Source of the DNA: Steroidobacter agaridevorans
GTDB lineage: Bacteria > Pseudomonadota > Gammaproteobacteria > Steroidobacterales > Steroidobacteraceae
Direction of reading: 5' to 3'
Assembly (NCBI RefSeq): GCF_009932555.1
Contig: NZ_BLJO01000003.1
Coordinates: 744,001-808,000 of the forward strand
Length of the DNA stretch: 64,000 nt
The position numbers and the translations under genes were made by a program. The notes below the pieces were generated by a model. That model was not told where the DNA came from, searched no databases, and saw only the letters and a program-made list of their open reading frames with translations. Shown here piece by piece: positions 53,353-55,983 of this stretch. Every line of letters begins with the position of its first letter. The stretch's first letter is position 1.

Positions 53353-54396
53353 ATGACGCTCGGCCCGGTGATGATGGACGTGCAGGGCAAGTCCCTGACC
53401 CAGGAAGATCGCGAGCTGCTGGCGCATCCGCTGGTCGGCGCTGTGATCCTGTTCACACGCAATTTCGAGAGCGTCGAGCAGCTCCAGCAGCTGGTCGCCG
53501 AAATTCGCGCCGTGCGCTCGCCGCCGTTGCTGGTTACGGTCGATCACGAGGGCGGTCGCGTGCAGCGGTTTCGCCAGGGTTTTACCGTGCTGCCGTCGAT
53601 GCGAATCATCGGGCGCCAATATGACCTGGACGCGGTCGCGGGCCGCCTGCTGGCTCGCCAATGCGGCTGGCTGATGGCCGCCGAACTGCGCGCGGTCGGC
53701 ATCGATATGAGTTTCGCGCCGTGCGTCGATCTGGATTACGGCGCCAGCAGCGTGATCGGCGATCGCGCTTTCCATCGCGATCCCCGCGTGGTTTCGGAGC
53801 TGGCCATCGCGTTCATGGGCGGCATGCGGGAGGCAGGCATGTCGGCCTGCGCCAAACACTATCCCGGCCACGGTTTCGTGGTGCCGGACTCGCACGTCGC
53901 CATGCCGGTGGACCGCCGGCCGCTGGCCGATATGGATGACGACCTCACCCCGTACCGCCGGCTGATCGACAACGGCGTGGCGTCCATCATGGCGGCCCAC
54001 GTCATCTTCAGCGAGGTGGACGACAAACCGGCCGGATTCTCACGCCGCTGGCTGCAGAGCGAGCTGCGCGGCCGGCTCGGTTTCGACGGCGCCATCTTCA
54101 CCGACGACCTCTCGATGGCCGGCGCCCAGGCCATCGGCGACATGCCGGCCCGGGCAAAAGCAGCCCTCGCGGCCGGTTGTGACGTGCTTTCGGTGTGTAA
54201 CGATCGCCAAGGTGTGCTCCAGGTCATCGATTCTTTGCGGGGGAGCGGGGATCCTTTAAGTCAAGTTCGCATGGCCCGCCTGCACGGCAAGCCGGGATTG
54301 ACCCGGGAGGCCCTGCACGCTTCGATGGACTGGCAAACCTGCGAGGGGGCGGTCAAGGGTTGTATGGAACGGCCCGATCTCCGGTTGAATTCATAA
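53353..54396 (+). CDS. nagZ: Beta-N-acetylhexosaminidase NagZ
   Basis: NagZ removes N-acetylglucosamine from recycled muropeptides in the cytoplasm, feeding amidase and AmpC induction pathways. The 347-residue GH3 protein has VDHEGGRVQRFR, the catalytic loop CAKHYPGHG and the nucleophile region AIFTDDLSMAGA. The start is ATG 53353, 11 bases after rlmD. No signal peptide is present. The LOV-GGDEF gene follows after 3 bases. Confidence 0.96.
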   Translation: MTLGPVMMDVQGKSLTQEDRELLAHPLVGAVILFTRNFESVEQLQQLVAEIRAVRSPPLLVTVDHEGGRVQRFRQGFTVLPSMRIIGRQYDLDAVAGRLLARQCGWLMAAELRAVGIDMSFAPCVDLDYGASSVIGDRAFHRDPRVVSELAIAFMGGMREAGMSACAKHYPGHGFVVPDSHVAMPVDRRPLADMDDDLTPYRRLIDNGVASIMAAHVIFSEVDDKPAGFSRRWLQSELRGRLGFDGAIFTDDLSMAGAQAIGDMPARAKAALAAGCDVLSVCNDRQGVLQVIDSLRGSGDPLSQVRMARLHGKPGLTREALHASMDWQTCEGAVKGCMERPDLRLNS

Positions 54397-54399
54397 CAT

Positions 54400-55344
54400 A
54401 TGAGCGTCGACGCAACACTGCTGCAGAGCCTGGTGGAATCCGCCCCGGATGGCGTGGTCATTTGCGATGCCCGGGCGGCCGATCGCCCCGTGATCTTCGT
54501 GAACGCGGCCATGGAGAAGCTCACCGGCTACGACGCGAACTACATGCGCGGCCGCAACCTGCGTTTCCTGCAGGGCGAGGACCATGAGCAGGAAGGCCTG
54601 GAGAAGATCCGGACGGCGCTGCGGCAGGGCGTATCGGTGCAGACCACGCTGCGTAACTACCGCAAAGACGGCACCATGTTCTGGAACGAAGTGACCATTC
54701 AGCCGCTGCGCGATGGCAACGGGAATGTGACGCACTTCGCAGGTTTCCATCGCGAGGGCGGCGATCGCCTGCGGCTCAGCGAGTCGCGCGAGAAGACCGA
54801 TCCGACGCTCTCCACGCAGACCATGCTGGCTTATCTGCGTGACGACAAGCTCACCGGCCTGCTGCGCCGGACTTACTTCGATGAACTGGTGAAGCGCGAC
54901 TGGGGCCTGGCCCAGCGCGAGTCGCGCCGCCTGAGCTTCCTGATTTTCGATCTGGATTGTTACTTCACCTACAAAGAGACGTTCGGCAAGAACGGCTCCG
55001 ATCAATCCTTCAAGCGCATCTCGCGCGTCATCAGCGGCTGTTTCCGGCGCGCCAGCGACCTGTGCGGCCGGTTCGACGAGGATCAGATCGCGGCGGTGAC
55101 GACGGGGCTGGATCTGGCCCAGGCATCGAAGCTGGCGGAAGCGGTGCTCGGACGAGTGCGCGATCTCGCCATTCATCATCCGCGCTCGATCGTGTCTCGC
55201 TACGTGACCGCGAGCTGTGGCGTGGTGTCGCTGGTGCCGCCGCACGATGCGGCGCCTGAACGAGTTTATGAAATGGCGCTGAAGGCGCTGAAGGACGCCA
55301 AGGAGCTGGGCCGCAATCGCGTCGTCAGCCGCGAGGCGGACTGA
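54400..55344 (+). CDS. LOV-like PAS domain plus degenerate GGDEF protein
   Basis: A 314-residue soluble protein. Residues about 5-120 form a PAS/LOV domain with LTGY, GRNLRFLQG, NYRKDG and FWN. Canonical LOV has GxNCRFLQ; here Leu54 replaces the flavin-binding Cys, and the late Gln is His117. Putative FMN contacts N53, R55, Q58, N86 and N96 remain. Residues about 150-310 are GGDEF-like, but the signature reads DEDQI (226-230), while the inhibitory-site RxxD (R217-D220) is kept. It probably binds c-di-GMP without synthesising it. It follows nagZ by 3 bases. Confidence 0.86.
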   Translation: MSVDATLLQSLVESAPDGVVICDARAADRPVIFVNAAMEKLTGYDANYMRGRNLRFLQGEDHEQEGLEKIRTALRQGVSVQTTLRNYRKDGTMFWNEVTIQPLRDGNGNVTHFAGFHREGGDRLRLSESREKTDPTLSTQTMLAYLRDDKLTGLLRRTYFDELVKRDWGLAQRESRRLSFLIFDLDCYFTYKETFGKNGSDQSFKRISRVISGCFRRASDLCGRFDEDQIAAVTTGLDLAQASKLAEAVLGRVRDLAIHHPRSIVSRYVTASCGVVSLVPPHDAAPERVYEMALKALKDAKELGRNRVVSREAD

Positions 55345-55983
55345 TCATTCACTGCTCGGCGTGATGATCGCGATCACGCCAAACTTCGGGCTGTCGATGT
55401 AATGGCGTTCGTTGCTCCGCATGCGACGCGTCTGTCGCAGCACATAGCTGGAGCCTTCGCCGCCATCCAGCACCAGATCCAATGTGAGATGCAGATAGCG
55501 GCCGCGCGTGAGCGCGATCTGGCCCTGTAATCCCGCCGACGCAGGCACGAGTGAGCCGACCGAAAGATATCTCGCGTCGTTCCGCGCGTAGCCCGGCTGA
55601 GTCCAACCGATGTGCGCCAGCGGCTGATAACCGCGGCTGCGACGCAATGTTTCCTCGATGGCGGTCAGCTTCATCTTTGCCGCGGGCAGGGCAGGGTAGC
55701 TCGCGACCGGCGGCGCCGCGGTCGTCGGCGGCGTTGCCGGCTCGGACTCGTCGTCAGGAATCTCCATTTGCTGAACGGAGTCGGCCGCTTCCACGCCCCA
55801 GCTCTCCGGCGTCTCCCGGCCGCCGAGATTGCGAAAGATCAGCAATTCGACGTCGTAGGACTGAATGGGGGCCACTTGTTGGGCGACGGCGGAGCTCACC
55901 GACATGAATGCCGCAAGCAACACCGCCACGCCCAGCTTGCGCTGGCCGGCCCTCACGCGAGAGAAGAAAGCTGAATGGCTCAT
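55345..55983 (-). CDS. CsiV-like periplasmic protein
   Basis: A 212-residue protein with a signal peptide (residues 1-34) and a CsiV-type domain (YDVELLIFRN, then LAHIGWTQPG, IALTRGRYLHLTLDLVL). CsiV-family proteins sit next to mfd or nagZ in Pseudomonas-type genomes, and one is reported as a cell-wall-binding protein that activates penicillin-binding proteins in Vibrio. Function here is inferred from the fold pattern. It starts 20 bases after mfd ends and converges end-to-end with the LOV-GGDEF gene. Confidence 0.8.
   Translation of the reverse strand: MSHSAFFSRVRAGQRKLGVAVLLAAFMSVSSAVAQQVAPIQSYDVELLIFRNLGGRETPESWGVEAADSVQQMEIPDDESEPATPPTTAAPPVASYPALPAAKMKLTAIEETLRRSRGYQPLAHIGWTQPGYARNDARYLSVGSLVPASAGLQGQIALTRGRYLHLTLDLVLDGGEGSSYVLRQTRRMRSNERHYIDSPKFGVIAIITPSSE

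Follow-up and report, generated by a model that had tools for sequence, protein, structure and literature searches.

A LOV-derived sensor joined to a degenerate GGDEF domain with a conserved I-site: a candidate c-di-GMP receptor encoded downstream of nagZ in Steroidobacter agaridevorans and its relatives

Known systems and features of the window protein

Degenerate GGDEF domains are common. In one published count, 24% of the cyclase-like proteins were degenerate and ~53% of GGDEF domains carried an RxxD motif, and PelD, PopA, and CdgA are named as degenerate-GGDEF receptors in the same source (PMC3974145). Which of the degenerate GGDEF proteins are genuine c-di-GMP receptors has mostly been settled one protein at a time. 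WspR binds c-di-GMP at its I-site through R242 from one domain and R198 from a second; the R242A and R198A variants were each purified essentially nucleotide-free, and a dead GGAAF variant could still bind c-di-GMP, a result marked as unpublished data in that paper (PMC2270323). The linkers of LadC proteins are 35 or 21 residues long and have heptad patterns (PMC10396304), and BAT, a natural LOV-like protein lacking the adduct cysteine, retains the signalling Gln, its Cys position being occupied by Pro (PMC4682037, Yee et al. 2015).

In the window, i.e. the whole 64,000-nucleotide stretch of DNA that was analysed, an ORF located between nagZ and csiV encodes a protein combining domains of these kinds. 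The features are as follows.

53353..54396, + strand: nagZ, glycosyl hydrolase family 3, 3 nt upstream of the ORF (ORF list, domain search)
54400..55344, + strand: ORF for a PAS/LOV-like plus degenerate GGDEF protein, 314 aa, start codon ATG (ORF list, translation, Pfam)
54400..54762, + strand: PAS/LOV-like domain, residues 1-121 (Pfam, alignment with 8c05, structure model)
54559..54561, + strand: Leu54 at the LOV adduct cysteine position, codon ctg, within GRNLRFLQG (aligned with NCRFLQ of 8c05)
54748..54750, + strand: His117 at the LOV signalling Gln position, context FAGFHRE (8c05 and family alignments)
54763..54822, + strand: linker, residues 122-141 (model confidence <50)
54844..55320, + strand: degenerate GGDEF domain, residues 149-307 (Pfam, WspR alignment, model)
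54916..54918, + strand: Arg173, corresponding to WspR R198, the I-site Arg donated by the neighbouring GGDEF domain (WspR alignment)
55048..55059, + strand: predicted I-site RxxD, here RASD (R217-A-S-D220) (sequence, family alignments)
55075..55089, + strand: degenerate signature DEDQI, residues 226-230 (sequence, alignments)
55174..55185, + strand: family motif HHPR, residues 259-262 (invariant in 26/26 rows retrieved with the whole protein, not with the motif)
55345..55983, - strand: csiV, convergent with and directly abutting the ORF (ORF list, domain search)

The translation of the ORF and the alignments confirm the preliminary description of this DNA in its reading of Leu54, of the His in place of Gln, and of DEDQI and RASD. 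In Pfam, the protein matched PAS_9 (E 6.7e-19) and GGDEF (PF00990; E 8.4e-28), both above cut-off. Of the NCBIfam models, that for YtvA-family LOV photoreceptors scored highest, with 115 bits (residues 7-135), short of its cut-off of 250. The solved chain closest over the whole length was 8c05, a LOV-activated diguanylate cyclase (sequence E 2.4e-54), which was also the best PDB fold match of the structure model (E 5.4e-30). This model is a monomer with a mean pLDDT of 88 and a pTM of 0.56, in which the arrangement of the domains is of low confidence. Its GGDEF half superposes on WspR with 1.7 A over 168 columns, and the GGDEF fold of diguanylate cyclases is thus present in the window protein on both the PF00990 match and the WspR fold match.

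The signature DEDQI, separated from RASD by five residues, differs from GG[DE]EF at four of five positions. Both glycines and the fourth and fifth residues are missing, an acid is kept at the third residue (Asp228) and at Asp184, and neither the FK lysine nor the Asn after it is retained, the equivalent residues being F189 and K192. In the LOV-like domain, all eight residues of the set G51, N53, R55, F56, L57, Q58, N86, and N96 are present; the protein has eight of the nine listed LOV residues, the definition of Yee et al. being no Cys and at least 9 of 10 other residues.

Distribution of the family and its gene neighbourhood

A search of the genomes of 60 relatives detected near-full-length matches throughout the genus and in many genomes of the taxonomic family. 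In a scan of named genome contigs, 93 relatives were found, with identities falling from 97% (Peristeroidobacter agariperforans) through Steroidobacter and Povalibacter to 27% in other gammaproteobacteria, by which the idea of an oddity specific to the window was rejected. The best 80 of the 93 were kept and form, together with the window protein, a locus set of 81 proteins. The window protein and L031-L096 are hereafter referred to as the nearer rows (65 readable); at least one of these (L091) does not differ, over the columns used for the tree, from a protein of another taxonomic family of the order.

In a profile search of the order, 94 of the 147 genomes had a match at E 1e-40, and ordinary cyclases account for some of these matches. 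Ninety loci were read, of which 30 were given by the search and 60 were fetched, and eight of them, all with GG[DE]EF and without xHP or xNP at the HHP site, were set aside, leaving an order set of 82 members. HHPR is not counted as independent evidence because it was part of the retrieval pattern for the 80 loci and xHP/xNP was the membership rule for the 82. In a tree of 96 GGDEF domains, from which the signature and I-site columns were left out, all 58 chosen family rows (20 of the 81 and 38 of the 82) lie on one side of a branch with an SH-aLRT of 99; a long-branch control row (L205) joins the family group in this tree. The family was absent from the literature searched, subscription journals being mostly outside the scope of that search.

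In 73 of the 80 loci, nagZ precedes the gene on the same strand. It was undetected in the other seven, in six of which the match starts no more than 150 bases from the end of the locus. Among the 73 loci, the distance from the nagZ stop to the start of the gene is <100 nt in 63, the two genes overlap in 42 (34 of them with an overlap of exactly 4 nt), and 0.7-1.5 kb lies between them in 10; single distances are approximate because start codons were picked by rule. The spacer of one such locus (L101, 4274-5835) contains genes for a phosphoribosyltransferase and a phosphorylase-superfamily protein. On the other side, csiV or mfd follows in the opposite orientation in 57 of the 80 loci. The family is therefore usually positioned directly downstream of nagZ and before a convergent csiV-mfd, and the neighbourhood that had been noted from the window alone, next to nagZ and csiV, turns out on the nagZ counts to be a recurrent arrangement.

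CsiV occurs 166 times in PMC4063736, a paper that according to its title concerns a peptidoglycan-binding protein of Vibrio cholerae that is crucial for PBP1A. Gene order suggests that the protein may be functionally linked to NagZ and cell-wall recycling; if the coupling to nagZ is functional, c-di-GMP would be tied to cell-wall recycling. The csiV locus was also surveyed in the class: csiV was matched in 108 genomes, and in the 30 loci read from these, 1.5 kb being covered on each side so that a gene located farther away would escape, the GGDEF half was matched in none, and the possibility that the gene is general to the csiV locus of the class was rejected. The N-terminal half only was matched in two of the 30, both from one genus (E 1e-9 and 8e-11).

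Loss of the signature and retention of the I-site

Canonical GG[DE]EF was found in none of the 81 proteins of the locus set, all of which are changed at two or more positions; canonical orthologues, which the preliminary description had named as evidence against it, were thus not encountered. The orthologue search that it had suggested for RxxD returned this motif in all 81 proteins, and the residue at position 173, equivalent to WspR R198 by alignment, is Arg in 80 of them. In the order set, for which the membership rule did not use RxxD, the motif is again present in every member (82/82), and R173 is present in 75 and missing in seven. The 82 members have 68 different signatures, one of which is a single change from the canonical form. 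In a 26-row alignment, R217 and D220 are invariant and L54 is nearly so. The window protein and the family accordingly show the combination that marks degenerate-GGDEF receptors in sequence, i.e. a non-canonical signature with RxxD kept.

That the protein is still an active diguanylate cyclase with an unusual active site has very little probability in our assessment. The acids D184 and D228 remain, and near-canonical AGDEF and SGDEF sites are active (PMC3974145), but in those active variants only the first position is changed, whereas the window signature and those of the whole locus set depart further from the canonical form, as described above. An active cyclase was rejected on the signature and the residue losses.

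The loss of two hallmark sites, together with the finding that 12 of the 24 genomes of the window's taxonomic family (own genome counted) gave no match at E 1e-40 in one search, could also be explained by the decay of a gene without function. This explanation is extremely improbable. In 10 pairs of five genus-level sequences, dN/dS ranged from 0.06 to 0.18 over the whole gene, and the separate domains gave 0.03-0.08 (GGDEF) and 0.03-0.31 (LOV-like). Across the named loci, the gene has also retained its position behind nagZ and its RxxD. The window gene is under purifying selection, and decay was rejected as unlikely for the genus by these values.

As a control, 114 other GGDEF domains from the same genome and two related genomes were compared, with architectures pooled, since many of these domains may belong to other architectures such as GGDEF-EAL. 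RxxD is present in 73 of the 90 canonical domains, only 40 of which also have the R198 equivalent. Among the 24 non-canonical domains, three contain RxxD (GGEEI, AGDEF, and SGEEF), one of them with the R198 equivalent; a first subset of 75 of the 114 had shown RxxD in none of 15 non-canonical domains. The motif was found in 0/12 control domains with at least two signature changes, compared with every protein of the locus set. In these three genomes, active-site loss is usually accompanied by I-site loss, and the nagZ-linked family is an exception. This family-wide contrast, in which the I-site is kept, the active site is varied, and the paralogues show the opposite, points to a predicted receptor family and to the residues concerned.

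A second type of strongly degenerate GGDEF domain, with GDGTL or GDGTF as signature and QxxD in place of RxxD, occurs once per genome in the three genomes (L205, L211, and L213), and the copy in the genome of the window has an EAL match directly after it on the same contig and strand. This genome contains 36 GGDEF and 20 EAL matches and only 2 PilZ matches, which suggests that other kinds of c-di-GMP receptors are at work.

The reading that we favour, with moderate confidence, is that the window protein is a catalytically dead diguanylate-cyclase-like protein acting as a c-di-GMP receptor with a LOV-derived sensor. As far as can be judged from the sequences, the family probably reads c-di-GMP, because the predicted docking site is kept in every member read and the active site is lost; I-site residues matching those of WspR together with a missing active site are what a receptor needs. 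c-di-GMP made by the other cyclases of the cell would bind to R217 and D220, and R173 of a partner GGDEF domain would complete the I-site, by which the putative dimer may be locked or rearranged. The N-terminal PAS/LOV-derived domain would then gate or read out this change in the dimer, and contact with another protein, plausibly NagZ or the cell-wall machinery, would serve as the output. Weighing against this reading are the seven order members that lack R173, the pairing of RxxD with the R198 equivalent in only 40 of 73 canonical paralogues, the acids kept at Asp228 and Asp184, the low confidence of the monomer model in the arrangement of the domains, the long-branch control inside the family group, the 12 genomes of the window's taxonomic family that gave no match, and the variation at position 54 across the order.

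RxxD may instead have been kept as a protein-protein surface, in a scaffold or pseudo-enzyme pairing with itself, an active cyclase, or NagZ. The I-site of MsLadC sits in the groove of the LOV dimer, and dark inhibition was affected when this site was changed (PMC12805367); CdpA is a degenerate GGDEF protein acting without c-di-GMP (PMC3974145). We nevertheless consider this alternative unlikely: R, D, and the partner Arg, by which WspR holds c-di-GMP, are kept together, and RxxD persists in members without the LOV motif, so that a LOV-specific contact does not explain it.

The LOV-like sensor and comparison with known systems

At position 54, Leu is found in 63 and Met in two of the 65 nearer rows. 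In the locus set, where two of the 81 rows are gapped at this position and were dropped, the 79 readable rows contain Leu (68), Trp (6), Met (2), Thr (2), and Phe (1), and Cys is found in none of the rows of either group. The Gln-site position is His117 in 51 of the 65 nearer rows and Gln in one. The flavin-pocket residues are N53 and R55 in 58 rows each, Q58 in 61, N86 in 63, and N96 in 54, with F56 in only 18. Judged from these alignments, the retention of Leu54 in the nearer rows and of RxxD in the locus set is beyond chance. A random residue at position 54, which the preliminary description had also named as contrary evidence, is therefore not seen among the nearer rows; across the order, the position does vary (82 members: L 31, W 19, F 14, others 16, gap 2).

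In the 14 rows L097-L110, Q58, N86, and N96 are present in none, and RxxD is present in all 14; the model of one distant member (L101), of lower confidence (pLDDT 80), has the same order of elements as the window model and also has 8c05 as its best match. The flavin motif, defined as at least 4 of 5 residues, is kept in 13 of the 82 order members, namely in 8 of the 11 in the window's taxonomic family and 5 of the 71 outside it, and the remaining 66 members outside the family are without it. Set against the presence of RxxD in every order member, this distribution suggests that the sensor drifts from a LOV-like to a plain PAS domain and that the I-site is the constant part.

Cys is found at position 54 in one of the 82 order members (L297, from genome G038, belonging to another taxonomic family of the same order); this protein keeps the adduct Cys in NCRFLQ and has Arg at the Gln position and the degenerate signature DAETF. 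Three members (L291, L302, and L303) have Pro54, and in these as well as in L275, one of the members with Phe54, the remaining flavin motif is retained, indicating that the cysteine was replaced by different routes. The forms with Cys, Leu, Pro, and Phe at the adduct position and those without the flavin motif constitute a natural series for the loss of LOV photochemistry.

It is improbable, in our view, that the protein is a blue-light receptor in which a flavin semiquinone formed without the cysteine passes its signal on to the binding of c-di-GMP. Most of the flavin pocket, F56 excepted, is retained in the nearer rows, receptors lacking the Cys can signal via the semiquinone (PMC4682037), and natural LOV receptors without Gln exist, some of which have His (PMC9098866). 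However, the near absence of Gln from the nearer rows has to be set beside the behaviour of Cys-less Vivid, in which replacing Gln blocked radical-state dimerisation (PMC4682037), and of YF1 and NmPAL, in which His at this site abolished the light responses (PMC9098866); a photoreceptor role is not expected on these grounds. The non-helical linker predicted over residues 128-143 and the scarcity of the flavin motif outside the window's taxonomic family also argue against such a receptor.

In the lineage of the window, the sensor most likely still binds flavin. Because neither a cysteinyl adduct nor the Gln is available, any input would be redox or ligand occupancy, not a classical photocycle, and by analogy with the receptors above the sensor is expected to hold flavin and to be either redox-responsive or static, and not to act as a photoreceptor. 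The preliminary description had proposed the coupling of flavin redox or another ligand to c-di-GMP binding. The c-di-GMP half of this proposal has gained strong sequence support from the RxxD and R173 counts in both sets and from the rarity of RxxD in non-canonical paralogues. The flavin-radical half is weakened: with both Cys and Gln gone, with the effects seen in Vivid, YF1, and NmPAL, and with most members outside the taxonomic family lacking the flavin motif, light or flavin-radical signalling is less likely than earlier supposed.

A wider interpretation, which we offer tentatively and which is possible but doubtful, is that dead LOV/PAS-GGDEF proteins form a family fixed at this locus, with genes that often overlap nagZ, and carry c-di-GMP status directly to peptidoglycan recycling, a blue-light sensor having lost its cysteine and, in most lineages, its flavin. 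Since the messenger-binding site was fixed while the sensor was stripped, the former output domain would have become the input. If this is true, one order would show the steps from a photoreceptor cyclase to a pure messenger receptor.

The predicted role of the window protein shares the degenerate-GGDEF receptor logic with PelD, PopA, and CdgA, which presumably differ from it in architecture and gene context; the lists of 50 fold matches for the window model and for that of L101 name none of the three. As in BAT-LOV, the adduct Cys is replaced and other LOV residues are kept, but the window protein differs from BAT in having Leu and His at the Cys and Gln positions and a degenerate GGDEF output. 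With LadC (MsLadC, PDB 8c05) it shares the LOV-GGDEF order and the RxxD motif, whereas the Cys (in NCRFLQ), the Gln, and the GGEEF that 8c05 keeps are all missing. The linker of the window protein (~33 residues, from E119 to L151) also differs from the helical LadC linkers of 35 or 21 residues in that its residues 128-143 are not helical in the model, whose confidence is low in this region. WspR differs in being an active cyclase and in carrying a receiver (CheY-like) domain, yet its GGDEF fold and its three I-site residues, R198, R242, and D245, are all matched in the window protein.
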